From Streptomyces griseus (GTDB lineage: Bacteria > Actinomycetota > Actinomycetes > Streptomycetales > Streptomycetaceae): DNA of 64,000 nucleotides. Of the stretch, positions 25,332 to 54,214 are shown piece by piece. The translations under genes and the position numbers were made by a program. The stretch spans positions 1 through 64,000 of the forward strand of contig NZ_UAVD01000009.1 in NCBI RefSeq assembly GCF_900460065.1, written 5' to 3'. The notes under the pieces were generated by a model that made no database searches, was not told the DNA's origin, and was given only the letters and a program-made list of their open reading frames with translations. How positions within the stretch are numbered: the first letter of the stretch is position 1; each line of letters begins with the position of its first letter.

Positions 25332-26045
25332 TCAGCCCCGGGCGGGTCCGCCCGTGCCGTCGGCAGGTGTGCGCGCCAGTGCGTCGGCGAAGCGGGACGT
25401 CAGCGCGGTGGGTGCGGTGATGGCGGTGCCGACCACGACGCTGTGGGCGCCGCGGGCGAGCGCCTCGGCCGCCTCCTCGGGGGTGTTGACGCGCCCTTCG
25501 GCGACGACGGGTACGGAGATCGCGGCCGCCAGGGAGGCCACCAGGTCGAGATCCGGTCCGGTCTGCTGCACGGTCCCCGGCACATAGCCGGACAGGGTGG
25601 TGGAGACGAAGTCCGCGCCCTGTCCGGCGGCGGTGATCCCCTCGGCGAGGGTGGCGACGTCGGCCATGACGAGGGCGCCCGCTCCGTGCACGGCGGCGAC
25701 GAGTTCGGCGAAGGTGGAGCCGTCCGGGCGCGGCCGGTCGGTGGCGTCGGCGGCGACCACGGCGGCGCCCGAGGCGGCGACGGCCAGGGCGTGCCGGACG
25801 GTCGGGGTGATGTACACCCCGGTGTCGCCGTCCTTCCACAGGCCGATGACCGGCAGGTCCACCGCCGCCGCGATGGCCGCGACGACCTCCGGTTCGTTGG
25901 CGCGGATCGCGGCGCCGCCGCCGGCGGCTGCGGCGAGCGCGAGGCGGACGAGGGTGCCGGTCTCCCGCATCGGGTCCCCGGGGGGCGCCTGGCAGGAGAC
26001 GATCAGCCGGCCCCGGAGGGTGGCGGCCAGGTTCTGTGCGTTCAT
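25332..26045 (-). CDS. nanE: N-acetylmannosamine-6-phosphate 2-epimerase
   Basis: The 237-residue TIM-barrel protein converts ManNAc-6-phosphate to GlcNAc-6-phosphate in sialic acid catabolism. Typical NanE blocks are visible: LIVSCQAPPGDPM (residues about 14-26), AAIRANEP, VIGLWKDGDTGVYITPT (catalytic Lys in the LxK region), and the phosphate loop VAEGRVNTPEEAAEALARGAHSVVVGTAIT. It overlaps the kinase gene by 4 bases (ATGA) and is the third gene of the nanA-nanK-nanE operon. Its product enters amino-sugar metabolism through deacetylation to glucosamine-6-phosphate elsewhere in the genome. Confidence 0.93.
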   Translation of the reverse strand: MNAQNLAATLRGRLIVSCQAPPGDPMRETGTLVRLALAAAAGGGAAIRANEPEVVAAIAAAVDLPVIGLWKDGDTGVYITPTVRHALAVAASGAAVVAADATDRPRPDGSTFAELVAAVHGAGALVMADVATLAEGITAAGQGADFVSTTLSGYVPGTVQQTGPDLDLVASLAAAISVPVVAEGRVNTPEEAAEALARGAHSVVVGTAITAPTALTSRFADALARTPADGTGGPARG

Positions 26046-26986
26046 CGGTGGGCTCCCGGACGGTGGAGGGGAAGGGTGGCGGGCAGGGCCGCGGCGCCGC
26101 GTACGGCGGCGTCCCCGCCGTGCAGCGGGGGTTCGGGGAGGAGTCCCCGCAGGGGCGGCATCAGTTCGGCGGCGAAGGCCGCGGCCAGCGCGTCGTGGTA
26201 CAGCGCGCCGATCCGGGGGACTCCCCCGCCGACGACGACCCGGTCGGGGCCGAGGGCGTTGGCCAGGCCGCCGAGGACCCGGCCGGCCGCCGCCGCGCCG
26301 GTGGTGATGGCCCGTACGGCGGCCCGGTCGCCTCCGGCGGCGCGGGCGGCGACCGTTTCGAGCCGGTCCGGCGGGCTGCCGGTGAGCCGTGCGTAGTGGG
26401 CGGCGATGCCCGGACCGGAGGCGATGACCTCCAGGTGTCCGGTGGCGCCGCAGGTGCAGGGCAGTCCGGCCGCCTCGGCGCTGGGCAGATGGCCGAGGTG
26501 GCCGGCGATGCCGGCGGCGCCGTGCAGCATCCGCCCGTCGACGGCGAGGGCGCCTCCCACACCGGTGCCGACGGCCGCGTACAGCAGCGAACCGCGGTGG
26601 CCGGTCAGGGCGGCGAGTTCGGGTCCCGCCGTGGCGCGCACGTCGTTGTCGCAGGCCACGGGCAGGCCCGTACGGTCCGCGAGGCCGGCGCCGAGCGCGG
26701 TGCCGGCCCAGCCCCGGATGGAGTCGGTGGCGCTGGTGACCCTGCCGCTGCGGGGGTCGACGACCCCGGCGGCGGCGACGCCGATCAGGGAGGCCAGTCC
26801 CTCGGGGTCGACCTCGGCCGCCGCCGCGGCGAGCGCGTCGAGCACGGCGGCGGCGCCCTCCCGGGCGGGGGTGGCCCGGGTGCGCCGGACCAGCACCTCC
26901 CCGTCGGGGGCGAAGAGGGCCGCCGCGATCTTCGTGCCCCCGAGGTCGAGGCCGATGACCACGGCTCCGGTCGTCCGCCCGCTCAT
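26042..26986 (-). CDS. nanK: ROK-family N-acetylmannosamine kinase
   Basis: A 314-residue ROK kinase: ATP-binding GLDLGGTKIAAAL at the N terminus, the phosphate-2 motif GTGVGGALAVDG (residues about 138-150), and the ROK signature with zinc ligands GHLGHLPSAEAAGLPCTCGATGHLEVIASGPGIAAH (residues about 165-200; Cys-Thr-Cys). It phosphorylates ManNAc before epimerisation by NanE. The assignment to ManNAc rather than glucose is by operon context: lyase upstream, epimerase downstream, each overlapping by 4 bases. Confidence 0.9.
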   Translation of the reverse strand: MSGRTTGAVVIGLDLGGTKIAAALFAPDGEVLVRRTRATPAREGAAAVLDALAAAAAEVDPEGLASLIGVAAAGVVDPRSGRVTSATDSIRGWAGTALGAGLADRTGLPVACDNDVRATAGPELAALTGHRGSLLYAAVGTGVGGALAVDGRMLHGAAGIAGHLGHLPSAEAAGLPCTCGATGHLEVIASGPGIAAHYARLTGSPPDRLETVAARAAGGDRAAVRAITTGAAAAGRVLGGLANALGPDRVVVGGGVPRIGALYHDALAAAFAAELMPPLRGLLPEPPLHGGDAAVRGAAALPATLPLHRPGAHR

Positions 26987-27942
26987 CGGACCGGCGGCAG
27001 ACCGGCGCCGCGCAGCCGCTCCGCGACGGAGGCGGCGGACGCGGCGGACAGCGGGATCTGCGGGAAGGCGGTCGCGCCGCGGTCGATGACGCCGAGCAGC
27101 CGCAGCGCCTCCTTGAAGGATCCGAGCGCGGACGAGCTGCGGCCCATCTCCTGCTCGGGGCCGGCGTCGACCAGGGCGAACAGCTCGACGAGCCGCTCCT
27201 GTTCCCGGGCGGCGAGCGTCCAGTCCCCCGCCCGCGCGGCGTCGTACAGCCGTACGTAGCCGGCCGGATCGACGTTGCCGAGCCCGGGGACGACGCCGTC
27301 GGCTCCGGCCAGCAGGGCCGCGTCCACGGTGAGTTCGGAGCCGGTCAGCACGGTGAAGTGCGGTGCCGGACCCCGGTCCCTGCCCCCGCGTCCGCCCAGT
27401 TCGACGAGGAGCCTGCGCAGACCGCCCTCGTCGCCGCTGCTGTCCTTGAGGCCGGCCAGGGTGCCGTCCTCGGCCAGTTCGCGGATCAGGGTGGCGGAGA
27501 GCTTGGAGTGCACGGCGACCGGGATGTCGTAGGCGAACAGCGGCAGGTCGACGTCCGCCCGCAGCCTGCGGAAGTGCCCGGCGATCTCGTTGGGGTGGGT
27601 GCGGGTGTAGAAGGGCGCCGTCGCGACGAGGGCGTCGGCGCCCAGCTCCGCGGCGGTCCGGGCGTGGGCGAGCACCCGGGGGGTCGTGGTGTCGATGACC
27701 CCGGCCAGGACGGGGACCCGACCGGCGGCGGCGGTGACGACGGTCTTCAGGGCGGTGGCCCGCCGGTCGTCCGTCAGGTAGGCGACCTCGCTGGTCGAAC
27801 CGAGGGCGAACAGGGCGTGCACGCCGCCGTCGACGAGGTGGCCGACGAGCCGGGCGAGGGAGGCCGTGTCGACCTCGCCCCGGTCGTCGAGCGGAGTGCA
27901 GACCGGCGGTACGACGCCGCGCAGCGGTGCGGTCAGGGACAT
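26983..27942 (-). CDS. nanA: N-acetylneuraminate lyase (DHDPS family), copy 1
   Basis: The 319-residue dihydrodipicolinate synthase/NAL-family aldolase has the pattern LFALGSTSEVAYLT (residues about 46-59), the catalytic tyrosine region FAYDIPVAVHSK (about 135-146) and the Schiff-base lysine in LAGLKDSSGDEGG (about 160-172). NAL cleaves sialic acid to pyruvate and ManNAc. A related protein at 38047-38985 is the second copy. It is the first gene of the operon with nanK and nanE. ATG 27942 was chosen over a farther upstream frame because the operator at 28019-28040 lies in the extension. Confidence 0.9.
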   Translation of the reverse strand: MSLTAPLRGVVPPVCTPLDDRGEVDTASLARLVGHLVDGGVHALFALGSTSEVAYLTDDRRATALKTVVTAAAGRVPVLAGVIDTTTPRVLAHARTAAELGADALVATAPFYTRTHPNEIAGHFRRLRADVDLPLFAYDIPVAVHSKLSATLIRELAEDGTLAGLKDSSGDEGGLRRLLVELGGRGGRDRGPAPHFTVLTGSELTVDAALLAGADGVVPGLGNVDPAGYVRLYDAARAGDWTLAAREQERLVELFALVDAGPEQEMGRSSSALGSFKEALRLLGVIDRGATAFPQIPLSAASAASVAERLRGAGLPPVR

Positions 27943-28018
27943 GGTGGGAGAGCTCCAGCTCGCTCGGGACGCCGGTCTTTCGCCTTTCGCCCGGAAGGGA
28001 GGACGAGACCAGGACATG

Positions 28019-28040
28019 AGACGTAAGATGTCTTACGTCT
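28019..28040. promoter_or_regulatory. GntR-type operator 1 of the sialic acid regulon
   Basis: Arms AGACGTAAG and CTTACGTCT are perfectly complementary around ATGT. It lies between divergent nanA and the GntR gene. Shares the core AGACGT(A/C)AGATGTC with operators at 31372 and 32282. A second palindrome, GGCTTAGCTTAAGCC (28041-28055), adjoins it. Confidence 0.88.
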
Positions 28041-28115
28041 GGCTTAGCTTAAGCCGATGCCCCGGCGGCCGGTCAAGAGGCCGCGGCGGCCGACGACACC
28101 CCCAGGAGGACGGTT

Positions 28116-28874
28116 GTGGCCCGCCCCACCATGGCGCAGGACATCGAGCGCAGGATCAAGGAACTGATCCTCGACCGGGCGCTCGGCCCGGGCGATCCGC
28201 TCCCCACCGAACCGGAGCTGATGGAGCTGTTCGCCGCCGGGCGGGTCTCGGTGCGCGAGGCGCTCAAGGCGTTGCAGGCCGTGAACGTCGTGGAGATCCG
28301 GCGGGGCTTCGGCACCTTCGTCGGCTCGCTCTCGCTGACGCCCTTCGCCGAGGGGCTGGCCTTCCGGGCGGTCGTGCGCCACGGTCGGGGCGAGCCGGGG
28401 CTGCTGGAGCTGATGAAGGTGCGCGAGGCGCTGGAGACCGGCCTGGTCGGCGCCGTCAGCGCCGGCATCCCCGCCGGGGACCTGGCGGTGCTGCGGAGTC
28501 TGGTCGCCACGATGGAGGCCGAGGCGGCCCGGGACGGCCGGGTCGCCCGGGCGACCGACCGCGCCTTCCACCTGGCGCTCTACGCCTCGCTCGACAACCA
28601 CCTGCTCAGTGAGGTGCTGGACGCTTTCTGGGCGGCGATGGACCGGGTGCGCACCAGTACGGACGACGGCCACCAGGACCCCGGCACCACCTGCCGCCAG
28701 CACCACGAGATCGTCGTGGCGGTGGCGGCGGGCGACGGGGTCCGGGCGGCCTCGGCGATGCGCGCCCACTTCGACGGCATCCGCGCCCGTCTGGAGCGGC
28801 ACCCGTCCGGGGGCGGTTACGGGGTCACGGTCACCGACCGGCTGCCCGAGGCCTGCTTGCCGTCGGCCTTGTAG
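28116..28874 (+). CDS. GntR/FadR-family regulator (NanR-like)
   Basis: A 252-residue regulator with a GntR winged helix (residues about 8-70: GDPLPTEPELMELFAAGRVSVREALKALQAVNVVEIRRGFGTFV in fragments such as LPTEPELMEL and VSVREALKALQ) and an FCD ligand domain (about 95-235) with the conserved metal-binding Asp/His residues in DRAFHLALY and CRQHHEIVVAV. It probably senses sialic acid or ManNAc and controls the divergent nan operon through operator 1. GTG 28116 follows AGGAGGACG. Its 3' end overlaps the convergent sialidase gene by 58 bases. Confidence 0.92.
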   Translation: MARPTMAQDIERRIKELILDRALGPGDPLPTEPELMELFAAGRVSVREALKALQAVNVVEIRRGFGTFVGSLSLTPFAEGLAFRAVVRHGRGEPGLLELMKVREALETGLVGAVSAGIPAGDLAVLRSLVATMEAEAARDGRVARATDRAFHLALYASLDNHLLSEVLDAFWAAMDRVRTSTDDGHQDPGTTCRQHHEIVVAVAAGDGVRAASAMRAHFDGIRARLERHPSGGGYGVTVTDRLPEACLPSAL

Positions 28875-30256
28875 GTCACCGTCAGGCGGGCGTCGCCGGT
28901 CGCGCCCGCCGGGATCGTGACCGGGACCTTGATGTTCGCTCCCTGGCCGGGCCGGACCGCCGGGAACGCCACCTGCCTCGTGCTCCAGCCGGCGGGTACG
29001 GCCAGGTCGAGCGTGCCCGCGCTGCGCGTGACGTCCATCCGGTTGACGACGCGTACGGTCACCTCGGCGGTGGTCCCGGCCCTCAGCGTGGCCGGGGGCG
29101 TGATGGTGATGTCCGCGCAGGTGCCGCCGAGCCACTTCAGGTCGAAGGAGGAGTAGGTGATGTGCCGGTAGTCGGCGCGCTCGTAGAGCAGCCCGAGCCG
29201 GCCGTCCGGCAGCCGGGTCAGCGTCGAGTAGGCGGCGCTGCCCGGGTCGACGACCTTGCGGATCGGCCAGGTCCTGCCGTTGTCGCAGGACATCTTCACG
29301 GTCAGGTTCTTGCGCGCGGTGCTGTCGGTGTTGCTGAACAGCAGCCAGGATGCCTGGGGGTGGGAGGCGGGGACGTCGGGGGCGTAGCGGATGACCGAGC
29401 CGTTGTTCGCCGGGTCGGGGAGGTCGGTGTCCTGGACGAACGGTGTGTAGGTGACGCCGCCGTCGCTGGAGTACGCGACGGTCCGGTAGGGCGCGGAGCG
29501 GTTGTTGAGCATGATCCGGCCGTCGCTGAGCTCGACGGTCTTGTTCTCGTCGCCGCCGGGACCGACCGGGGTGCCCGTCTTCCAGGTCGCTCCGTGGTCG
29601 TCGCTGTAGGCGCTGACGGCGTAGTTGGCTCCGTTGTTCCGGATGGCGTACTGCTGGATCAGCCGCCCCTCGTACGCGCCGTGGCGCACCTGGATTCCTT
29701 CGCCGGAGGCCGCGAACATACCGGCCCAGGCGGGGTTCTTGATCTGCTTCGTGATGCGGCGGTGGGTCCAGGTGACGCCGTCGTCGTCCGAGTAGCTGTA
29801 GTCGGCCTGGAGGATGTTCGGGTCGCTCTCGTCGTTGCCGGTGCCCGAGCCGAAGAAGCCCTGGTTCACGGAGCCCGCGTAGAAGACGAAGATCCGGCCG
29901 GTCGTGCGGTCGACGAGGAGGCTGGGGTCGCCGAATCCCTTGGGGGCCGCTTCCTTGCGGACGACCTGCTGGCTCTCCCAGGTGGCGCCTCCGTCGGTGC
30001 TGCGCCGTACGACGACGCCGAGGTTGCCGGGGAGGTCGCCGAGCGTGGGGCGGGTGTCGTAGGCGGCGATCAGCGTGCCCCGGACGGAGGTGGTGAGCGC
30101 GGGGATGCGGTAGTGGGGGGAGCCGACGCCCTGGGTCGCGATGTCCTGGGAGGTCAGCTCACCGGGGGCGGCGGCCGGTGCGCCGTGGGCGGTGCCGGCG
30201 GTGGTGGCCACCAGGAGGGCGGCGGACAGCATGGCGACGGTGACTCTGCGCTGCAT
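28817..30256 (-). CDS. Secreted exo-alpha-sialidase (GH33 type)
   Basis: A 479-residue secreted enzyme: Sec signal peptide (residues 1-25, ending GTAHGA), the arginine motif YRIPAL (residue about 49), and five Asp-box repeats of the SxDxGxTW kind (STDGGATW, SDDDGVTW, SDDHGATW, SSDGGVTY, CDNGRTW), i.e. a six-blade propeller. Catalytic Arg, Glu and Tyr are expected; the late GLLYERADY fits the nucleophile region. A C-terminal NEW3-type beta domain (about 380-479) follows. It releases sialic acid from host or environmental glycans. It is co-transcribed after the esterase gene (65-base gap). Confidence 0.93.
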   Translation of the reverse strand: MQRRVTVAMLSAALLVATTAGTAHGAPAAAPGELTSQDIATQGVGSPHYRIPALTTSVRGTLIAAYDTRPTLGDLPGNLGVVVRRSTDGGATWESQQVVRKEAAPKGFGDPSLLVDRTTGRIFVFYAGSVNQGFFGSGTGNDESDPNILQADYSYSDDDGVTWTHRRITKQIKNPAWAGMFAASGEGIQVRHGAYEGRLIQQYAIRNNGANYAVSAYSDDHGATWKTGTPVGPGGDENKTVELSDGRIMLNNRSAPYRTVAYSSDGGVTYTPFVQDTDLPDPANNGSVIRYAPDVPASHPQASWLLFSNTDSTARKNLTVKMSCDNGRTWPIRKVVDPGSAAYSTLTRLPDGRLGLLYERADYRHITYSSFDLKWLGGTCADITITPPATLRAGTTAEVTVRVVNRMDVTRSAGTLDLAVPAGWSTRQVAFPAVRPGQGANIKVPVTIPAGATGDARLTVTYKADGKQASGSRSVTVTP

Positions 30257-30321
30257 GGGCGATCTCTCTTCTCATGAGGGGAGACGTGCGGACGGAGCGT
30301 TCCGTGGTCGGACGCGACCGG

Positions 30322-31329
30322 TCAGGCGCGGTCGGTCCGGTCGGCCGGGAGGCCCGCGAACAGGGCGCGCACCCAGGCCAGTTGTTCGGCCCGGTGGTGT
30401 TCGGCGCCGCCCTCGTGCCCGTTGAACTCGTAGACGCGCACGTCCTTGGGGCCCGCGTACCGGTTGTAGGCCGTGAAGCAGGTGGAGGGTGGACAGATGT
30501 CGTCCGCCATCGCGATGGAGAACAGCGCGGGGGCGGTGGCCCGGGTGGCGTGGTGGGCCCCGTCGAAGTACGACAGGGTGTGGAACACCGGCTCGACGCG
30601 GTCGCGGTGGAGCCGGAGGTAGGCGGCGATCTCGGTGTACGGGGGCGTCGCGGCGATCCGCGCGGCGCGGGGGATGTTGCACAGGAACGGCACGTCCGGC
30701 ATCACTCCGGCGAGCCCCGGCACGAGCCCGGCCACGGCCAGCGCGATGCCCCCGCCCTGGCTGACCCCGGTCACCACGATGCGGGCGGGATCGACCTCGG
30801 GGTGCTCGCGCATCGCCCGCACGCAGCGGACCGCGTCGGTGAACACCCGCCGGTAGTAGTGCGTCGCGGGACTCTCGACGCCCCGGGTCAGGAAGCCCGG
30901 CACGGACCCGGCGGAGCCGGGGTCGGTGTCGGGGGTGTCGCCGGTCGCCGAGGACCAGCCCTGGCCGCGGGTGTCCATGACCAGGTGCGCGTATCCGGCG
31001 CAGGCCCACATCAGCTGCTCGTGGGCCAGGCCCCGGCCGCGCCCGTACCCGAGGAACTCCACGACGCAGCCGAGCGGCCCGGTGGCCCCGGCGGGCATGC
31101 GCAGCCATCCCCGTACGGGACGGCCGTCGTGGCCCGGGACGCTCACGTCGTAAGCGCGGACCTGCACCAGCCCGCTGTCGACCTCGTCGAACCGGGGTCG
31201 CCGGTCCGGTGCGCCGCCGGGGGCCCGCTCGTCCAGGGTGTCGGACCAGAAGGCGTCGAAGCCGTCGGGAAGCGGCAGTTCGGGCCGGTAGGCGCGGCAT
31301 TCCGCGAGCGTGAGATCGGCCGACGGCAT
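30322..31329 (-). CDS. CE7-type acetylxylan esterase/cephalosporin-C deacetylase-like
   Basis: A 335-residue alpha/beta hydrolase of the acetylxylan esterase AXE1 (CE7) family: RGQG oxyanion/structural motif in MDTRGQGWSS (residues about 119-128), nucleophile elbow GVSQGGG (about 183-189), an Asp near ADDICPPST, and HE in NGHEGG (about 312-318). CE7 enzymes deacetylate xylo-oligosaccharides and cephalosporin C and have no signal peptide here, so this acts in the cytoplasm. Placed between operator 2 and the sialidase, it may de-O-acetylate imported sialic acids (inference). ATG 31329 follows CAGGAGGGCACC. Confidence 0.9.
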   Translation of the reverse strand: MPSADLTLAECRAYRPELPLPDGFDAFWSDTLDERAPGGAPDRRPRFDEVDSGLVQVRAYDVSVPGHDGRPVRGWLRMPAGATGPLGCVVEFLGYGRGRGLAHEQLMWACAGYAHLVMDTRGQGWSSATGDTPDTDPGSAGSVPGFLTRGVESPATHYYRRVFTDAVRCVRAMREHPEVDPARIVVTGVSQGGGIALAVAGLVPGLAGVMPDVPFLCNIPRAARIAATPPYTEIAAYLRLHRDRVEPVFHTLSYFDGAHHATRATAPALFSIAMADDICPPSTCFTAYNRYAGPKDVRVYEFNGHEGGAEHHRAEQLAWVRALFAGLPADRTDRA

Positions 31330-31371
31330 GGCGGTGCCCTCCTGGAGGGATGAGGAAAGCGACAGGACAGA

Positions 31372-31393
31372 AGACGTCAGATGTCCTGATGGC
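31372..31393. promoter_or_regulatory. GntR-type operator 2 of the sialic acid regulon
   Basis: AGACGTCAG, ATGT, then CCTGATGGC: left half and spacer match operator 1, right half is degenerate. It lies 43 bases upstream of the esterase start and would control the esterase-sialidase operon. Confidence 0.7.
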
Positions 31394-31489
31394 AAACCAG
31401 ACCGTAGGGAGCCGCGGGGCCGCCCGTCAAGGGCCGGGCCGCCCCGCGCTCCCACCGCGAAGGGCCGGGCGCGAGCGCGCCGGCCGCGA

Positions 31490-32221
31490 TCAGCCCTCGC
31501 TCTCCCCGCGCGCCCTGGCCTCCGCGATCCGGCGTCTGACCGGGGCGTAGTGCTCGCCGAGCGCCTTCAGGAACGCGGGGACGTCGCCCTCGCGGGCCGC
31601 GTCCACGATGTTCTGGTGGGCGGCGACGGTCTCGGCCTCGTCGGCGTGCGTGAACCCCTGCAGATGCGGCGCGACGATCGTGTAGACGTCCCAGAAGGCC
31701 ATCGAGAGCTGGCCGATCAGATCGTTGCCGAGCGGCGCCACGAGCAGCGCGTGGAAGGCGCGGTCCGCCGCGACGAAGCCGTGCCCGTCGCCCACGCCGG
31801 TCTCGCGCATGGTCGCCACCAGACTGTCCAGCCGGTCCAGCTCCTCGGCGTCCAGCGAGGAGATGATCCGGTCGGCCATGCCCCGTTCGAAAAGCTCGCG
31901 CACGTCGACGAGGTCGGCCATCACCTGGAAGTCGTCGTCGGGCGAGAGCAGCCCCCGGAAGGTGAGGCTCTCCACCAGCGCCGACAGGCTCAGCCGGCCG
32001 ACGTACGTCCCGTGGCCGTGACGGACTTCGACGATGTCGAGCGCGGCAAGGATCTTGACGGCCTCCCGGACGCTGGAACGGCTGGCGCCGAGCGTCTCGC
32101 ACAGGGCCGGTTCCGTCGGCAACGGGTCGCCCGGGCGCAGCCGTTCGTCGAGGATGTACCGCTTGATGCCCTCGACGACCTCCTGCCGCAACAGGGTGCG
32201 ACCGGGTCTCGCGCCGGACAT
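31490..32221 (-). CDS. GntR/FadR-family regulator, second copy in locus
   Basis: A 243-residue regulator with a winged helix (residues about 12-75: GDPLPTEPALCETLGASRSSVREAVKILAALDIVEVRHGHGTYVG) quoted here by its parts LPTEPALCETLG and SSVREAVKIL, and an FCD domain (85-235) with metal ligands in DRAFHALLV and EAETVAAHQNIV. ATG 32221 follows GGGGAG. It is divergent from the transporter operon; operator 3 lies between them. It resembles the regulator at 28116-28874 in the DNA-contacting helix (PLPTEPxL, SVREAxK), so the two may recognise overlapping operator sequences. Confidence 0.92.
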   Translation of the reverse strand: MSGARPGRTLLRQEVVEGIKRYILDERLRPGDPLPTEPALCETLGASRSSVREAVKILAALDIVEVRHGHGTYVGRLSLSALVESLTFRGLLSPDDDFQVMADLVDVRELFERGMADRIISSLDAEELDRLDSLVATMRETGVGDGHGFVAADRAFHALLVAPLGNDLIGQLSMAFWDVYTIVAPHLQGFTHADEAETVAAHQNIVDAAREGDVPAFLKALGEHYAPVRRRIAEARARGESEG

Positions 32222-32281
32222 AGGTGAACTCCCCACCTCTTGACCCCTCTCGATTGTCGAGCTACGTTCCCACGCTATCAA

Positions 32282-32303
32282 GGCATCAGACATCTGACGT
32301 CTG
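32282..32303. promoter_or_regulatory. GntR-type operator 3 of the sialic acid regulon
   Basis: On the minus strand AGACGTCAG, ATGT, CTGATGCCT; 7 of 9 arm positions pair. It lies between the second GntR/FadR gene and the ABC transporter genes, probably controlling both. Confidence 0.8.
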
Positions 32304-32385
32304 ACGCTCTCGCCGATCAGGCGTCCCGATAGCCTTCGAAAATCCGTTCTCCACCCATTCCTCACCAACGTCCTTTGGAGGACCC

Positions 32386-33981
32386 GTGCCCGAGCTGAGG
32401 CCAGCCGGCGTCGAGCGCCGCACCTTCCTGCGTTACACCAGTGCCCTCGGCGCGGCAGCCGCCATCACGGCAGGCCTTTCGGCTTGCGGCGGGCCCTCCT
32501 CGACCGCCGACGGAGCGGCCGCGAAGGGCGACGGCAACGGCACCATCGAGGCGGGTCTGTCGTACCCCCTCTCGACCGGTTTCGACCCGATGATCACGTC
32601 GGGCGCCACCCCGTACGCCGCCAATATGCACATCTTCGAGGGGCTCGTAGATCTCGATCCCGCAACACTCGTGGCACGCCCCGCGCTGGCCACCGAGATG
32701 CCGAAGAAGATCAACGCCACCACCTACCGCGCCACCCTGCGCGACGGCGCGACCTTCCACGACGGCTCACCGGTCACCGCCGAGGACGTCGTCTTCAGCT
32801 TCGAGCGCATCCTCGACGAGAAGAACGCGTCGCTGATGGCGCAGTTCGTGCCGTTCATCGACACGGTCACGGCGGTCGACGCGAAGACCGTCGAGTTCAA
32901 GCTCCGGCACGCCTTCGCACTCTTCCCCTCCCGGATAGCCGTCGCCCGGATCGTGCCCAAGAAGATCGTCGAGGCGGACGTCAAGGGCTTCGACGCCAAG
33001 CCCGTCGGCTCGGGGCCGTACCGGTTCGTCGAGGCGACCCGCGAGGACAAGATCGTCTTCGAGAAGTACGCGAAGTACAACGGCCCGCACCCGGCGAAGG
33101 CCCAGAAGATGGTCTGGCGCCTGATGTCCGACCAGTCGGCCCGCGTCAGCGCCATGGAGTCCGGCCGCGTCCAGGCGATCGAGGACGTCCCGTACATCGA
33201 CGTCCAGCGGCTCTCCGCCACCGCGAAGACCGAGTCCGTGCAGTCCTTCGGCCTTCTCTTCCTGATGTTCAACACGGCGGACAAGCGCTTCGCCGACAAG
33301 CGGGTGCGCCAGGCCCTGCACTACGCCCTGGACACCGAGAAGATCATCAAGACCGCGATGGTCGGCAACGCGACGGCCGCCACCGGCTACGTCCCCACCA
33401 CCCACCCCGACTACCACAAGGCCGCCACCGCCTACACCCACGACGTGGCGAAGGCGAAGAAGCTGCTGGCCGACGCGGGCGTGGGCAAGCTGAAGTTCAC
33501 CGTGCTCACCACGGACACCGGGTGGGTCAAGGACATCGCCCCGCTGCTCAAGGAGAGCTGGGCCGCGGCCGGCATCGAGGCCACCTTGGACATCGCCCAG
33601 TCCGCCGCCCAGTACGCCAAGGTCGACGGCGGGGACTTCGAGGTCATGGTGGCCCCGGGCGACCCCTCGGTCTTCGGCAACGACGTCGACCTCCTGATGC
33701 GCTGGTTCTACTACGGCTTCTGGCCCGAGAAGCGCTACGCGTGGGCCGGCTCCCCCGCGTACAAGAAGGTCAAGCAGCTCCTCGACAAGGCCGCCCGGGC
33801 GGCCGACGAGGCGACGCGCAAGCAACTGTGGGGCGAGATCACCGATCTGGTCGCCGACGAGGCCGCGCTCTACCCGATCCTGCACCGCAAGCTGCCCACC
33901 GCCTGGAACGACAAGGCGCTCCCCGGCTTCAAGCCGCTGCCCACCACGGGCCTGTCCTTCGTGGACGTCGGCCGCGCCTGA
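32386..33981 (+). CDS. Peptide-type ABC transporter substrate-binding lipoprotein (probable sialic acid uptake)
   Basis: A 531-residue family 5 solute-binding protein. The N terminus has a twin-arginine motif (ERRTFLRYTS) followed by the lipobox LSACGG, so it is likely a Tat-exported lipoprotein. The conserved signature is in ATFHDGSPVTAEDVVFSFERILD (residues about 126-147, quoted as DGSPVTAEDVVFSFERI). Peptide-type systems carry sialic acid in some bacteria (Sat-type); the genomic setting here supports that role. Start GTG 32386 is preceded by GGAGGACCC. It heads the operon with two permease/ATPase genes and a lyase. A hairpin follows the stop and may favour its higher expression. Confidence 0.9.
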   Translation: MPELRPAGVERRTFLRYTSALGAAAAITAGLSACGGPSSTADGAAAKGDGNGTIEAGLSYPLSTGFDPMITSGATPYAANMHIFEGLVDLDPATLVARPALATEMPKKINATTYRATLRDGATFHDGSPVTAEDVVFSFERILDEKNASLMAQFVPFIDTVTAVDAKTVEFKLRHAFALFPSRIAVARIVPKKIVEADVKGFDAKPVGSGPYRFVEATREDKIVFEKYAKYNGPHPAKAQKMVWRLMSDQSARVSAMESGRVQAIEDVPYIDVQRLSATAKTESVQSFGLLFLMFNTADKRFADKRVRQALHYALDTEKIIKTAMVGNATAATGYVPTTHPDYHKAATAYTHDVAKAKKLLADAGVGKLKFTVLTTDTGWVKDIAPLLKESWAAAGIEATLDIAQSAAQYAKVDGGDFEVMVAPGDPSVFGNDVDLLMRWFYYGFWPEKRYAWAGSPAYKKVKQLLDKAARAADEATRKQLWGEITDLVADEAALYPILHRKLPTAWNDKALPGFKPLPTTGLSFVDVGRA

Positions 33982-34120: not shown

Positions 34121-35071
34121 ATGGTTGCTTTTCTCCGGCTCGCGCTGCGCCGCGTCGCGATGATGCCGGTGATGATTCTCGGCATCGCACTGCTGGTCTT
34201 CGTGGTGCTGCAGTTCTCGCCGGCCGACCCGGCCTACAACGCGCTCGGGGAGAGCGCCGGACCTGAGGCCAGGGAAGCCTTCGCGGAGGCCAACGGGCTC
34301 AACGACCCGTTGCCGGTCCGCTACTTCGACTTCCTCGGCCAACTGCTCCACTTCGACCTCGGGATGACCGTCCCACCGAGCCAGCCCGTGATCGACCGGA
34401 TCACGGCAGCGTTCCCGCTCACCCTCCAACTGACCTTCCTCGGGCTGTTCCTCGCGGTCACGCTCGCCGTCATCGGCGGTGTCCTGGGCGCGATGTACCG
34501 CGACCGGTGGCCCGACCAGCTGTTCCGGGTGCTGTCCATGGCCGGGGTCGCCATTCCCTCGTTCTGGCTCGGCGTCCTGCTCATCCAGCAGTTCGCGCTG
34601 AACACCCGGATCTTCCCGACCGGCGGGTACACCAACCCCGCCGACTCCTTCAGCGGCTGGCTCACGACCATGGCCCTGCCCGCCGTTTCACTCGCGGTGC
34701 CGGTCGCCGCGTCGCTCGCCCGGCTCGTCCGCACCTCGATGGTCGCCGAACTGGACCGCGACTACGTACGCACCGCCCGGGGCAACGGACTGCCGGTGTT
34801 CCTGGTGATCCGCTCGGTGCTGCGCAACGCGCTGGTCACCCCGCTCACCGTGCTCGGCGTCAAGGTCGGCTACCTGCTCAGCGGCGCCGTGGTCATCGAA
34901 GCGATCTTCGACCTGCCCGGCATGGGCAAACTCATCCTCGAAGGTGTCACCGGCGGCGACGTCGCCCTGGTCCAGGGCACCGTGCTGACCATCGCCATCG
35001 CCTTCCTGGTGGTCAACGTCGTCGTCGACCTGCTCTACCTGCTGGTCAATCCGCGCATCAGGACGGTGTGA
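34121..35071 (+). CDS. ABC transporter permease (DppB type)
   Basis: A 316-residue binding-protein-dependent permease with six predicted membrane helices (first at about 8-30: MMPVMILGIALLVFVVLQF). The EAA loop that contacts the ATPase reads DYVRTARGNGLPVFLVIRSVLRNALVTPLTVLG in pieces: residues about 205-240, including DYVRTARGNGL. This is the DppB/OppB-type permease of the peptide-class transporter, imported as the first permease of the operon. ATG 34121 follows AAGGAACCC. It is followed, after one base, by the fused permease-ATPase gene. Confidence 0.93.
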   Translation: MVAFLRLALRRVAMMPVMILGIALLVFVVLQFSPADPAYNALGESAGPEAREAFAEANGLNDPLPVRYFDFLGQLLHFDLGMTVPPSQPVIDRITAAFPLTLQLTFLGLFLAVTLAVIGGVLGAMYRDRWPDQLFRVLSMAGVAIPSFWLGVLLIQQFALNTRIFPTGGYTNPADSFSGWLTTMALPAVSLAVPVAASLARLVRTSMVAELDRDYVRTARGNGLPVFLVIRSVLRNALVTPLTVLGVKVGYLLSGAVVIEAIFDLPGMGKLILEGVTGGDVALVQGTVLTIAIAFLVVNVVVDLLYLLVNPRIRTV

Positions 35072-35072
35072 C

Positions 35073-37046
35073 ATGTTCGCCACGGGCCGTCTGGCCAAGA
35101 AGCTCTCCCGACCGGGCATCGCCTTCCGCGCCCTGCCGGTCACCTCCCGCGTCGCCCTCGGGGTGCTGGTCCTCGTGATCCTCGGCGCCGTACTCGCCCC
35201 CCTGCTCACCCAGGACCCGCTGACCACCGGCACCCCGGTCCAGGCCCCGAGCGCCGACCACTGGTTCGGCACCGACCGGGCCGGCCGCGACGTCTTCGCC
35301 CGCGTGGTGCACGGATCGCGCTACTCCCTGGTCATCGGCCTCGGGGCGACCGCCGTCGCGTTGATCGCCGGGGCCGTGCTCGGCTCGCTCGCCGCCACCT
35401 CCCGCAGGCTCGGCGACGAGTCCGTCATGCGGACGCTCGACGTGGTGATGTCGTTCCCGCCGATCGCCCTCGCGGCCGTCCTGGTCGCCGTGTTCGGCAC
35501 CAGCGTGCCGGTGATCATCTTCACCATCGCCTTCGTCTACACCCCCTCGCTCGCCCGCGTCGTCCGGGCCAACGTGCTCGCGCAGTACGGCGAGGACTAC
35601 GTCGCGGCCGAGAAGGTCATCGGCGCCCGGCGCGGGTACATCGTGCTCCGCCACGTCGCCGTCAACTGCATGGCGCCGGTGATGGTGTTCGCCACCGTCA
35701 TGGTCGCCGAGGCGATCATCTTCGAGGCCAGCCTCTCCTTCATCGGGGCCGGCGTGCAGGACCCCGACCCCAGCTGGGGCAGCGTCCTCGCCTACGGCCG
35801 GCAGATCCTCCTGGCCGGCGGCTGGTGGGCCACCTTCTTCCCCGGTCTGGCCCTCCTGATCACCGTCCTGGCCCTCAACATCCTCTCCGAGGGACTCACC
35901 GACGCCTCGGCCGCGCCCAGGAGCGCCCGCACCTCCCCCGCGCCCGACGCCACCACGGCGCCCGACCCGGTCGAGGCCGCCGCCACCGTCGACATCGACG
36001 CCGCCCTCGCCAAGCTGGCCCGGCACATCAGCGCCACCGAGCCGGCCGTCACCCCGGTCCGCGAGGACGCGGAGGAGCTCCTCGTCGTCCGCGACCTGGC
36101 GATCCGCTTCCCCGACCGCTACGGCGACATCCCCGTCGTCGACCGGCTCGACTTCACCGTGCACGAGGGCGAGACCCTCGGTCTGGTCGGCGAGTCCGGC
36201 TGCGGCAAGTCCATCACCAGCCTCGCCGTCATGGGCCTCCTCGCCCGCAACGCCGAGGTCAGCGGCGAGATCCTCTACCGGGGCCGGGACCTGCTGAAGC
36301 TCCCGCCCAAGGAGCGCCGCGCCCTGATGGGCCCCGAGATCGCGATGGTCTACCAGGACGCGCTCTCCTCCCTCAACCCCTCCGTGCTCGTCGGCACCCA
36401 GCTCAGGCAACTGACCTCGCGCGGCGGTACGAAGACCCCCGCCGAGCTGCTCGAACTCGTCGGCCTCTCCCCCGAACGCACCCTGCGCAGCTATCCGCAC
36501 GAACTCTCCGGCGGACAGCGCCAGCGGGTCCTCATCGCCATGGCGCTCTCCCGCAGCCCGCGCCTGCTGATCGCGGACGAGCCGACCACCGCCCTCGACG
36601 TCACCGTCCAGGCCCAGGTCGTCGAACTCCTCATCCGGCTCCGCGACGAGCTCGGCTTCGCCATGGTCCTGGTCTCCCACGACCTCGCCCTGGTCGGCGA
36701 CCTCTCCCACCGGGTCGCCGTGATGTACGCGGGGCGGCTCGCCGAGGTCGGCGACACCCGGTCCGTCCTCACCGGGCCCGCCCACCACTACAGCCGCGGC
36801 CTCCTCGGTTCCGTCGTCTCCCTGGAGGCCGGCGCGGACCGGCTCCACCAGATCCGGGGCGTCGTGCCCGCGCCCCAGGGCTTCGGCGAGGGGTGCCGCT
36901 TCGCCGGGCGCTGCGGAGCCGCCACCGACCTCTGCCGCACCACGACACCCGCGCTCACCCCGCGCGGCACCACGGACGACCACGGCTTCGCCTGCCACCA
37001 CCCGGCCAGGACGACCGCCGGGGTACGGGAAGGAAGCGCCCTGTGA
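35073..37046 (+). CDS. Fused ABC permease-ATPase (DppC-DppD type)
   Basis: The 657-residue protein joins a DppC-type permease (residues about 1-295, six helices, EAA loop EDYVAAEKVIGARRGYIVLRHVA around 185-205) to a DppD-type ATPase (about 340-650) through a Pro/Ala-rich linker (295-335). The ATPase has Walker A GESGCGKS, signature LSGGQRQRV, Walker B LLIADEPTTALD, and a C-terminal oligopeptide/dipeptide cysteine cluster (GCRFAGRCGAATDLC). Such permease-ATPase fusions occur in actinobacteria. It starts 1 base after the upstream permease and overlaps the next ATPase gene by 4 bases. Confidence 0.93.
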   Translation: MFATGRLAKKLSRPGIAFRALPVTSRVALGVLVLVILGAVLAPLLTQDPLTTGTPVQAPSADHWFGTDRAGRDVFARVVHGSRYSLVIGLGATAVALIAGAVLGSLAATSRRLGDESVMRTLDVVMSFPPIALAAVLVAVFGTSVPVIIFTIAFVYTPSLARVVRANVLAQYGEDYVAAEKVIGARRGYIVLRHVAVNCMAPVMVFATVMVAEAIIFEASLSFIGAGVQDPDPSWGSVLAYGRQILLAGGWWATFFPGLALLITVLALNILSEGLTDASAAPRSARTSPAPDATTAPDPVEAAATVDIDAALAKLARHISATEPAVTPVREDAEELLVVRDLAIRFPDRYGDIPVVDRLDFTVHEGETLGLVGESGCGKSITSLAVMGLLARNAEVSGEILYRGRDLLKLPPKERRALMGPEIAMVYQDALSSLNPSVLVGTQLRQLTSRGGTKTPAELLELVGLSPERTLRSYPHELSGGQRQRVLIAMALSRSPRLLIADEPTTALDVTVQAQVVELLIRLRDELGFAMVLVSHDLALVGDLSHRVAVMYAGRLAEVGDTRSVLTGPAHHYSRGLLGSVVSLEAGADRLHQIRGVVPAPQGFGEGCRFAGRCGAATDLCRTTTPALTPRGTTDDHGFACHHPARTTAGVREGSAL

Positions 37047-38050
37047 TCAGGCTCGACGGCGTCCACGTACGCCACAAGGCACGCAGTGGCGGGATCTTCT
37101 CCCGCGATGCCGTCCACGCGCTCACCGACGCCTCACTGAAGGTCGGGCGCGGCGAGATCGTGGGCCTGGTCGGAGAGTCCGGCTGCGGCAAGTCCACGCT
37201 CGCCCGCGTGCTGACCGGACTCCAGAAGCCCACCGAGGGCGAGGTCCTCTTCCACGGGCGCGACCTGTGGAAGATGTCCGGCGCCGAGCGGCGCGACGAC
37301 TTCGGTTCGGCCGTCGGCGTCGTCTTCCAGGACCCCGCGACCGCCCTCAACCCCCGCCTCACGGTCCGCCAGATCCTCCGCGACCCGCTGGACGTGCACC
37401 GCCGCGGAACGAGGGAGGCGCGCGAGGCCCGGGTGGAGGAGCTGCTCGACCTGGTCGGGCTGCCCGGCCACACCCTCGCAGCCCTGCCCGGTCAGCTCTC
37501 CGGAGGCCAGCGCCAGCGCGTCGCCATCGCCCGCGCCCTGGCCCTCGAACCCGAGCTGATCGTCGCCGACGAACCGACCTCCGCGCTCGACGTCTCCGTA
37601 CGCGCCCAGGTGCTCAACCTCCTGGTCGACCTGCGCGAACGGCTCGGCCTGGGCATGGTCTTCATCAGCCACGACATCCAGACCGTGCGCTACCTCGCCG
37701 ACCGCATCGCCGTGCTCTACCTCGGCCGCATCGTCGAGGAGGGCCGGGCCGCCGATGTGGCGGGCTCCCCCCAGCACCCGTACACCGAGGCGCTGCTCTC
37801 CGCCACGCCCAGCCTGCTGGAGGCGACGGAGCGCATCGTGCTCACGGGTCCGGTGCCCTCCGCCACCAACCCGCCGAGCGGCTGCCCGTTCCGCACCCGC
37901 TGCTGGAAGGCCGACGACGCCTGCGCCGAGGTCTTCCCCGTGACCACGTTCGGCCCCGCCGAACACCGCTGGCACTGCGTCCACCCCCAGAACTCCGCCT
38001 CCCCCTCGGAGACCCGGACCCCCGTACCGCCCGCAAGGAGCACCGCATGA
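37043..38050 (+). CDS. ABC transporter ATP-binding protein (DppF type)
   Basis: A 335-residue ATPase with Walker A GESGCGKST (residues about 40-48), Q-loop VFQDP, signature LSGGQRQRVAIARAL (about 155-170), Walker B LIVADEPTSALDV and switch His in ISHDIQTV. The C-terminal oligopeptide-transport domain includes GCPFRTRCWKADDAC. It supplies the second ATPase half of the peptide-type importer. The GTG start overlaps the TGA of the fused gene (GTGA), and its end overlaps the following lyase ATG. Confidence 0.93.
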   Translation: MIRLDGVHVRHKARSGGIFSRDAVHALTDASLKVGRGEIVGLVGESGCGKSTLARVLTGLQKPTEGEVLFHGRDLWKMSGAERRDDFGSAVGVVFQDPATALNPRLTVRQILRDPLDVHRRGTREAREARVEELLDLVGLPGHTLAALPGQLSGGQRQRVAIARALALEPELIVADEPTSALDVSVRAQVLNLLVDLRERLGLGMVFISHDIQTVRYLADRIAVLYLGRIVEEGRAADVAGSPQHPYTEALLSATPSLLEATERIVLTGPVPSATNPPSGCPFRTRCWKADDACAEVFPVTTFGPAEHRWHCVHPQNSASPSETRTPVPPARSTA

Positions 38051-38985
38051 CCGCCCCCTCCTCCGCGTACTCCGGAGTGATCCCGCCCGTCGTGACCCCG
38101 CTCACCGCCGACGGCGAGCTCGACCGCGCCTCCCTGGAGCGGGTCGTCGGCCACCTCCTCGACGGTGGCGTCAACGGCCTGTTCGCCCTGGGCAGTTCGG
38201 GCGAGACCGCCTATCTGACGCCGAGCCGGCAGGACGAGGTCATCGAGGTGATCACGGCGACGGCGGCCGGCCAGGTCCCGGTCCTCGTCGGGGCCATCGA
38301 GACCACCACCGACCGGGCCGCCGAGCGGGCCCGCGCGGCGGCCGCCCGGGGCGCCGACGCGGTCGTGGCCACCGCGCCCTTCTACACCCGCACCCATGTC
38401 ACCGAGATCGACCGGCACTTCCGGGAGCTCGCTGCGGCCGTGGACCTGCCGCTCCTGGCGTACGACGTACCGGTCTGCGTCCACAGCAAGCTGGACCCGG
38501 AGCTCCTGCTGCCGCTCGCGGCGGACGGGGTGCTCGCCGGGGTGAAGGACTCCAGCGGGGACGACGGCTCGTTCCGGCGGCTGGCCATCGGGGCCCGCGG
38601 CCTTCCGGGGTTCTCGGTGCTCACGGGCCACGAGCTGGTGGTCGACGCGATGATGCTGAGCGGCGCCGACGGTTCCGTGCCCGGCCTGGGCAACGTGGAC
38701 CCGCACGGCTATGTGCGGCTGCACGAGGCGGCCGTGAAGGGCGACTGGGACGCCGCCAGGACCGAGCAGGACCGGCTCGTCGGGCTGTTCGACATCGTCC
38801 GCGCGGCCCGCCCCGGCACGGCTTCGGCGACGGCCGCGGGGCTGGGGGCGTTCAAGACGGCCCTGATGCTGCTGGGCGTCATCGACACCCATGCGATGAG
38901 CTCACCGATGCGCCGTCTGGACGAGGCGGAGACGGCGGCGGTCGCGGCCTGCCTGGAGCGGGCGGGGCTCTCCCCGGTCCGATAG
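38047..38985 (+). CDS. NanA-like DHDPS-family aldolase, copy 2
   Basis: A 312-residue paralogue of the nanA product at 26983-27942; both have (L/V)DGGV..LFALGS..E.AYLT, ATAPFYTRTH..EI..HFR and Schiff-base lysine in GVKDSSGDDG (residues about 160-170). The tyrosine region is LAYDVPVCVHSK. Encoded at the end of the importer operon, it is likely a second N-acetylneuraminate lyase, possibly for a modified sialic acid such as an O-acetylated or glycolyl form (inference). ATG 38047 overlaps the ATPase stop by 4 bases. The operon ends at a strong terminator. Confidence 0.85.
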   Translation: MTAPSSAYSGVIPPVVTPLTADGELDRASLERVVGHLLDGGVNGLFALGSSGETAYLTPSRQDEVIEVITATAAGQVPVLVGAIETTTDRAAERARAAAARGADAVVATAPFYTRTHVTEIDRHFRELAAAVDLPLLAYDVPVCVHSKLDPELLLPLAADGVLAGVKDSSGDDGSFRRLAIGARGLPGFSVLTGHELVVDAMMLSGADGSVPGLGNVDPHGYVRLHEAAVKGDWDAARTEQDRLVGLFDIVRAARPGTASATAAGLGAFKTALMLLGVIDTHAMSSPMRRLDEAETAAVAACLERAGLSPVR

Positions 38986-53438: not shown

Positions 53439-54214
53439 TCTTCCCGACCTCCCGTCCCCCGTGCGTCCGTGCACCACGGGCCCGCTCACCTGTGCTGCAC
53501 CCAAACTAGCCGCAGGGTGGTGCGGCGGAGCGAAGCGGGTGACGGTCGGCGCCGCTCACGGCGGCTCCCGGGCGGAGACCGTCCTCGACGAGGAGGGCCG
53601 CCGGCCCACCCGCCGGTTCCGCGTCCGTCTTCCCGCCGGCCCCGAGCCGTACGGCGTGCCTCCCCGACGTACGGGCCGGGGAACGCCGACACCGCCGAAT
53701 TGCTCCTCATGACCGCATGCGGAGATTCATCGCCGGTCCGGAATGGGGCGCCCGGTCCGGGGATTCCGGCGTACGCCCATGGCCCCTCCATCTGTTCGTA
53801 TACCCCGACAGGTTGTACAGAGGTAGGAAGCGTCCCGCTTGAACGGGTGAATAGCTGAGGTACCCGGACAGCCCAGGTCACAAAGGTGAGCCCAGGGTGT
53901 TCGCGGACTGCCGAAGGAAGATTTTTCTCTTGCGATGCGGCAGCGCGCACCGCGGCGTACAAGTAGATTGCCAACATCACCACGGGGATTGATATCGACC
54001 TCCCAAGTGCAGTTCACCGACGAGCATTTGGCGGTCAGTCAGCACGTGAAGAGTTCCTGACGAATACCGAGTCCGGACAGTCCGCCGGTCCGCTGTCGAG
54101 CCCGGTCGGGCCGATCGTGCTGCGCGGTCGCGGTGTTCGCTTTTTCGTTTCCGACCTGATCCGGCTGTCCGGGACACCCCCCACACGGCCGACCGAGAGC
54201 ATGAGGAACGTTCT
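53439..54214. other. 776-bp intergenic region, AT-richer than its surroundings
   Basis: No convincing long gene is present. The right half (from about 53780) is markedly AT-richer than the flanks, e.g. the ATTTTTCTC and TTTTTCGTTT stretches. It holds an open frame of 17 residues on the minus strand (53727-53780), a TCAC-AAAG-GTGA hairpin (about 53879-53890), and probably the promoter of the substrate-binding gene at 54215. Open frames such as 53486-53983 on the minus strand lack a ribosome binding site. Confidence 0.55.
53727..53780 (-). CDS. Possible 17-residue peptide gene
   Basis: A minus-strand reading frame encodes MGVRRNPRTGRPIPDRR and has an unusually good GGAGGGG ribosome binding site 2 bases before its ATG region (GGAGGGGCC ATG). 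The peptide is very basic. I know of no matching family. The spacing is short, and the frame may be fortuitous or part of a leader peptide. Confidence 0.25.
   Translation of the reverse strand: MGVRRNPRTGRPIPDRR

Follow-up and report, generated by a model that had tools for sequence, protein, structure and literature searches.

Two sister NanR-like regulators and two classes of tandem heptamer sites at a sialic-acid locus of Streptomyces griseus

The window analysed here, a stretch of 64,000 nucleotides from Streptomyces griseus (assembly GCF_900460065.1, contig NZ_UAVD01000009.1, positions 1 to 64,000, forward strand), contains a sialic-acid locus that spans 25.3 to 39.0 kb. A first-pass annotation had proposed that one shared GntR operator, present three times, ties this locus into a single regulon. 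We found that the three sites, named O1, O2 and O3, fall into two types, R1-type for O1 and R2-type for O2 and O3, and that these types track which of two regulator genes, R1 and R2, is present; the single shared operator was thus not borne out. The minus strand carries nanE, nanK and nanA1, followed by R1 on the plus strand, a sialidase gene, an AXE1 esterase gene and R2 on the minus strand, and then a plus-strand importer. The genes of the latter are ordered as solute-binding protein, permease, permease-ATPase fusion and ATPase, and the final gene encodes a second NanA/DapA-family lyase, nanA2. The genes are as follows.

25332..26045, minus strand: nanE, epimerase of N-acetylmannosamine 6-phosphate (ManNAc-6-P), scoring above its NCBIfam cutoff
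26042..26986, minus strand: nanK, ROK-family kinase, below the specific NanK cutoffs and named from Pfam family and context
26983..27942, minus strand: nanA1, NanA/DapA-family lyase at the head of the catabolic operon, named from 58% identity to nanA2
28116..28874, plus strand: R1, GntR/FCD regulator of 252 amino acids, helix GRVSVREALKALQ
28817..30256, minus strand: sialidase with BNR domain
30322..31329, minus strand: AXE1-family esterase, from the family scan
31490..32221, minus strand: R2, GntR/FCD regulator of 243 amino acids, helix SRSSVREAVKILA
32386..33981, plus strand: SBP_bac_5 solute-binding protein of the importer, scoring about 610 bits with PDB 5ZA4, 5Z99 and 5YYB compared to 154 bits for the next PDB sequence
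34121..35071, plus strand: importer permease, by position and sequence
35073..37046, plus strand: importer permease-ATPase fusion, from the family scan
37043..38050, plus strand: second importer ATPase, by sequence
38047..38985, plus strand: nanA2, second NanA/DapA-family lyase, scoring under the specific cutoffs and named from Pfam family and context (best NCBIfam match DapA, likewise under its cutoff)

We take the three PDB entries to be SatA, a sialic-acid protein from Haemophilus ducreyi. Two features of the gene arrangement may be added: one protein (35073-37046) joins an importer permease and an ATPase, and R1 and the convergent sialidase gene share 58 bases tail to tail (28817-28874).

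Both regulators combine a GntR and an FCD domain (63.9 and 87.1 bits in R1, 65.2 and 71.8 bits in R2), with all scores exceeding the Pfam gathering scores. They share 40% identity across 218 positions and are each other's nearest paralogue in the genome (140 bits, compared to 54 for the next). These data uphold the earlier assignment of two GntR/FadR regulators beside the first and the third operator. Their recognition helices had also been described as similar, but the residue after the conserved helix arginine (Arg) differs, being valine (Val) in R1 and serine (Ser) in R2; other R1-like proteins carry asparagine (Asn) there. The best match of both proteins is the NanR family NF003011 of NCBIfam (102.3 bits for R1, 99.6 for R2), below its curated cutoff of 260. 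The closest R2 genes found are those of Streptomyces sp. rh34, S. fimicarius, sp. McG3 and S. anulatus (97-98%). The N-terminus of R2 begins 5 residues before that of R1, and R1 proteins are shorter in many relatives. Judging from the alignment, the motif DRAFH at 148 in R1 and 153 in R2, together with further aligned histidines, fits a D-x3-H pattern plus two His, which we assume to be the metal ligand set of FCD regulators.

The 14-mer AGACGTMAGATGTC occurs exactly at 28019-28032 and 31372-31385 on the plus strand and at 32289-32302 on the minus strand. Two of the three operators had therefore been placed correctly (28019 and 31372), while the third, being a minus-strand copy, lies about 7 bases from the previously given position 32282. 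The window holds six further matches with up to three mismatches, of which one has two mismatches and overlaps O1 and the rest have three. The 13-mer core GACGTMAGATGTC has four exact matches in the 8.53-Mb genome, namely O1, O2, O3 and one on contig C31; among the matches listed, all remaining ones carry two mismatches. The copy on C31 was rejected as a fourth target, as it falls on the start region (ribosome-binding site/start codon) of an unrelated gene and has no second half. The sites and the candidate -10 boxes around them are listed below, where R stands for purine, Y for pyrimidine and N for any base.

28016..28036: O1, ATGAGAC.GTAAGAT.GTCTTAC, three RT-N3-AY heptamers, R1-type, between the divergent nanA1-nanK-nanE and R1
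28046..28051, minus strand: candidate -10 box (TAAGCT) of nanA1, by eye from position and conservation
31373..31386: O2, one R2-type heptamer (GTCAGAT, 31376-31382) flanked by partial ones, about 43 bases upstream of the esterase gene
31401..31406, minus strand: candidate -10 box (TACGGT) of the esterase gene, by eye
32272..32277, minus strand: candidate -10 box (TAGCGT) of R2, by eye from position and conservation
32276..32281, plus strand: candidate -10 box (TATCAA) of the importer operon, by eye
32285..32305: O3, ATCAGAC.ATCTGAC.GTCTGAC, three RT-N3-AY heptamers, R2-type, between the divergent R2 and importer operon

The heptamers of O1 and O3 are contiguous, run head to tail and keep a 7-base register, and both sites contain the junction GATGTC. 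O2 is weaker than O1 and O3, with one complete heptamer. The gene positions agree with the earlier statement that the operators precede the nan catabolic, the esterase-sialidase and the importer operons, and the sites are conserved at all three promoters. The 8.5-Mb genome has in-register triples of RT-N3-AY at three positions, O1 and O3 among them. Arrays of at least three heptamers occur twice in the window, compared to a mean of 0.015 and a maximum of 1 per dinucleotide-shuffled window (200 shuffles); since the pattern was defined after the sites had been seen, conservation in relatives outweighs these statistics as evidence. The resemblance of the sites could in principle result from chance or from Asp-Val codon bias (GAC GTC), as genome-wide matches with at most two mismatches are common (111, compared to 19 for the reversed pattern). 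However, such an origin is ruled out by sites that are intergenic, exact and phased and that are kept in relatives where the upstream flanks vary, and we consider its probability negligible.

The phasing is evident from aligned promoters. Slots -2, -1 and 0 hold RT-N3-AY in 35/39, 38/39 and 38/39 R1 (Val) promoters and in 62/77, 75/77 and 77/77 R2 (Ser) promoters with the junction (77 of 88; the other 11 have none), slots -1 and 0 being partly fixed by the alignment anchor and slot -2 providing the free test. Further outwards, slot -3 is filled in 0/39 (R1) and 1/77 (R2), and the slot on the opposite side in 5/39 and 11/77. We rejected a reading of the sites as a single palindrome, as the third heptamer slot, which lies outside the dyad, is filled in 35/39 and 62/77 promoters. 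By sequence, the heptamers at each regulator's own gene (O1, O3 and relatives) appear to be of the GT-N3-AC type.

The two classes differ in their half-sites. R1-type units (RTRRGAY, complement RTCYYAY) combine one RTC half with one RTR half, while in R2-type units (RTCNGAY) both halves are RTC. We tallied these types at promoters of 97 loci (L015-L111), of which 80 were found via R2 and the rest via R1, leaving out rows with a match that began away from the N-terminus and rows with at most 30 intergenic bases. At least two R1-type heptamers precede nanA1 in 44/44 loci with R1 and in 4/24 loci without it. The esterase gene is preceded by at least one R2-type heptamer irrespective of R1 (28/28 with and 27/27 without, 55/55 in total), and so is R2 in 31/31 loci with and 45/49 loci without R1 (76/80 in total). 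R1-type heptamers were found in 0/28 esterase promoters of R1-bearing loci and in 3/55 overall. As controls served untrimmed 250-base stretches before other genes, in which R2-type matches numbered 5/63 (perB), 11/62 (perC), 1/62 (ATPase), 2/33 (nanA2), 0/28 (nanE), 4/27 (nanK), 0/2 (aqp) and 2/2 (glpK), and R1-type matches 3/63, 0/62, 4/62, 2/33, 0/28, 0/27, 0/2 and 0/2, respectively.

The class of a site also follows the helix residue of the regulator. For this comparison, 201 regulator matches were collapsed to 180 distinct ones, and 5 whose helix residue was a different one or could not be recognised were left out. Counting the longest array only, both halves are RTC in 223/235 heptamers of Ser regulators, 6/119 of Val regulators and 11/82 of Asn regulators, with no array in 8/88, 0/39 and 15/48 regulators, respectively. 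According to the available text of a correlation analysis (PMC4494728), helix position 39 is linked to two of the three middle bases, the outer ones, and it is these that differ between R1-type and R2-type heptamers. Position 39 would presumably be the residue after the helix Arg, given that the paper describes position 40 as Pro/Ser. In a regulator tree built from 82 of 176 rows after thinning and from 2 typed rows, in which the placement of the long rows L181 and L182 is unsure, R2 forms a single clade (100/100), and the Val-type R1 is nested within the Asn-type group.

Across 150 Streptomyces genomes, R1 (at least 67% identity) is present in 15 and R2 (at least 65%) in 24, which include all 15 with R1. 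The R1-type 21-mer was found in 13 genomes, namely 12/15 with R1, each time about 0.1 kb before it, and 1/135 others (G066), in which nanA1 is fragmented and R1 was not found. The R2-type triple occurs in 29 genomes, adjoining R2 in 18 of the 24 that carry it. In G159 and G160, two of the genomes that have an S. tendae-like locus and no R1, a 53-54% R1-like gene with an R1-type pair adjoins another nanA-like gene, and in G086, G137 and G064, which have no R2 match, R1-like regulators face nanA with R1-type heptamers. Where R1 is missing, 20/24 loci have no R2-type heptamer directly upstream of nanA1, and in most of these 20 nanA1 follows esterase-sialidase, as in S. tendae-like loci, where nanAKE are placed after these genes. 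This distribution could mean that R2 acts as the pathway's master regulator, with R1 tuning only itself or serving another ligand: R2 is present in all 15 genomes with R1 and in 9 without, and R1-less loci place the same genes downstream of R2-type sites. Against such a role of R2, O1 is kept in 44/44 R1-bearing nanA1 promoters and adjoins the candidate nanA1 -10 box, so that we consider this explanation highly improbable.

The anatomy of the sites, their conservation, the split into classes and the association with regulator genes are seen directly in the sequences. They make it likely, in our view, that two sister NanR-like repressors of the FadR subfamily control the locus and that each has an operator class of its own. 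R1 would bind O1 and repress nanA1-nanK-nanE and itself, while R2 would bind O3 and O2 and repress its own gene along with the importer and esterase-sialidase operons. Because the heptamer RT-N3-AY looks like the site of one dimer in the FadR subfamily (GT-N3-AC), dimers may assemble side by side; they would be stacked across the promoters, probably three on O1 and O3 and mainly one on O2. A pathway metabolite (N-acetylneuraminic acid (Neu5Ac), ManNAc-6-P or similar) in the FCD domain would release the repressors. R1 and R2 may respond to different signals, as the first-pass annotation suggested, or could share a pathway-level response. Binding, pairing of protein and site, repression, stoichiometry and effector are what we infer from these features. 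In the promoters of nanA1, the esterase gene, the importer operon and R2, each site is touched or overlapped by a candidate -10 box, read by eye, which fits repression with self-control. More tentatively, and with rather more doubt than assent, we propose a modular code for a group of Streptomyces FadR-type regulators, in which dimers lacking the E. coli NanR extension stack on RT-N3-AY units phased by 7 base pairs and the residue after the helix Arg selects the outer middle bases. In some streptomycetes, the two diverged sisters would then split the pathway into modules tuned separately, with R2 in charge of release and uptake and R1 in charge of catabolism.

Several observations weigh against two matched regulator-operator pairs. 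An R2-type heptamer is also found in 19/44 R1-bearing nanA1 promoters, and an R1-type one in 20/80 R2 promoters, two or more in 6/80. Most tallied loci were located via R2, which is a sampling bias. Several heptamers, such as the first of O1 (ATGAGAC), deviate from strict GTM-N-KAC. Because Val-type R1 is nested within the Asn-type group and R2 is one clade, the link between helix residue and site class amounts to about two historical changes on the tree and not many independent ones. Eleven genomes without R2 also have R2-type triples; in eight the triple precedes a different FadR-type regulator, and in three it lies elsewhere. Finally, at least two R1-type heptamers precede nanA1 in four R1-less loci (L048, L050, L051 and L054). 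R1 is in fragments in L048 and L050, and nanK/nanE were not found in the stretch examined of L051; L054 is an unexplained exception: nanAKE and R1-type heptamers are present there, and its genome contains no close R1. Such orphan R1-type sites were considered as proof that R2 reads O1, an argument weakened by L048, L050 and G066, where R1 and/or nan genes are in fragments, and by L051 with its missing nanK/nanE.

The mixed promoters would also be expected if R1 and R2 both bound all three sites of one shared operator, redundantly or in competition. The 14-mer and the GATGTC junction common to the sites and the 40% identity of the regulators point in the same direction, and a redundant GntR-type pair is known in GntR1/GntR2 of Corynebacterium glutamicum (available text of PMC2230225). 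However, the class split tracks regulator presence, the helix residue differs, and R1-type heptamers are missing from all 28 esterase promoters of R1-bearing loci; we consider a shared operator unlikely. Since the junction is shared, cross-binding of both regulators is possible. The single switch of the first-pass annotation is thus better read as two related, matched regulator-operator pairs with possible cross-talk.

The closest model for this arrangement is NanR of E. coli, of which three dimers bind (GGTATA)3 and are weakened by Neu5Ac according to the available text of PMC8012715. As in that system (see also PDB 6on4, 6wfq and 6wg7), a FadR-subfamily GntR regulator is associated with sialic-acid operons, and three tandem repeats lie at the promoters (O1 and O3, with one complete heptamer in O2). 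The D and His positions of NanR align with R1, and we take these positions to be the zinc ligands of NanR. The systems differ in that two regulators are present here compared to one in E. coli and that the unit is the 7-base-pair RT-N3-AY; GGTATA is missing from the sites, and its sole copy in the window, at 53799, is at chance level. In addition, NanR Arg59 and Asn89, the proposed base contacts, correspond to Pro and Arg in R1 and to Pro and His in R2. Residue 2 of R1 aligns with residue 28 of NanR, so that most of the 32-residue N-terminal extension, which confers cooperativity on NanR (PMC8012715), is absent. Given the different repeat and the missing extension, any cooperativity must arise otherwise.

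Among actinobacteria, C. glutamicum NanR (cg2936) is likewise a GntR repressor of a sialic-acid cluster (PMC4974736, PMC6165865); the available text of these papers names one regulator and does not mention an operator, binding site or motif. For Streptomyces, nan clusters with nanA/K/E, fadR-type regulators (96.58% of clusters in the class Actinomycetia), ABC (ATP-binding cassette) importers and, in seven species, an extra nanA beside the cluster have been described (PMC8754123). This report offers no operator analysis in its available text, where the terms operator, GntR and NanR are absent. Free-living S. olivaceus strains are reported to grow on sialic acid (PMC8749437, available text). The heptamers resemble the FadR-subfamily consensus GTM-N0-1-KAC as given in the available text of PMC4494728, but differ from it in that three units directly abut one another and the terminal G and C are relaxed to R and Y, respectively. 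Regarding effectors and sites of other regulators, the RpiR-type NanR of Streptococcus pneumoniae is reported to have ManNAc-6-P as its effector (available text of PMC12713135), and S. coelicolor HypR, also an FCD regulator, uses a different site (available text of PMC6608401). Among the matches listed from the open-access literature, we found no report of a Streptomyces sialic-acid operator or of FadR sites in heptamer arrays.

Similar arrays were also observed outside sialic-acid loci. In eight R2-less Streptomyces loci (centres of L193, L194, L195, L205, L214, L216, L217 and L219), R2-type triples stand before the other FadR-type regulator, which carries the helix SRLTVREAVKQL; in 4/8, a kinase-like gene with LDDDPTGTQT adjoins this regulator, before or after it. 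R1-like regulators with the helix SRNS are found in L112, L113, L133, L137, L138 and L144-L163, the first five with a 40-45% homologue of the solute-binding protein nearby, and most of these loci have heptamer pairs or triples upstream, such as RTGGGAY and RTCCTAY. In L114-L118 and L121-L123, R1-like regulators lie directly downstream of a tRNA-like sequence (by eye), and no heptamer pair was found within 350 bases upstream. Fragments of R1 and/or nanA/nanK with retained R1-type heptamers in L048 (13357-13647), L050 (11094-11234) and L231 apparently reflect decay of the catabolic module. In the source genome, tblastn detected no sialic-acid gene of the locus adjoining the other RT-N3-AY triple (C53) or the other three RTCNGAY pairs (C37, C45 and C52). 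At the centre of L190 (G000 C45:306097-306110), the near-dyad GGGTCTGATGTCAGACCC lies directly upstream of an HU-like gene.

Overall, our analysis turns a shared motif into two precise operators and a specificity prediction that hinges on one residue, Val or Ser, and on RTR..GAY or RTC..GAY, respectively. Should this hold, the operator mode of E. coli NanR with its tandem repeats would reach into free-living actinobacteria, where the repeat differs and the N-terminal extension is absent, and the locus would provide a natural example of a co-diverging regulator and operator.

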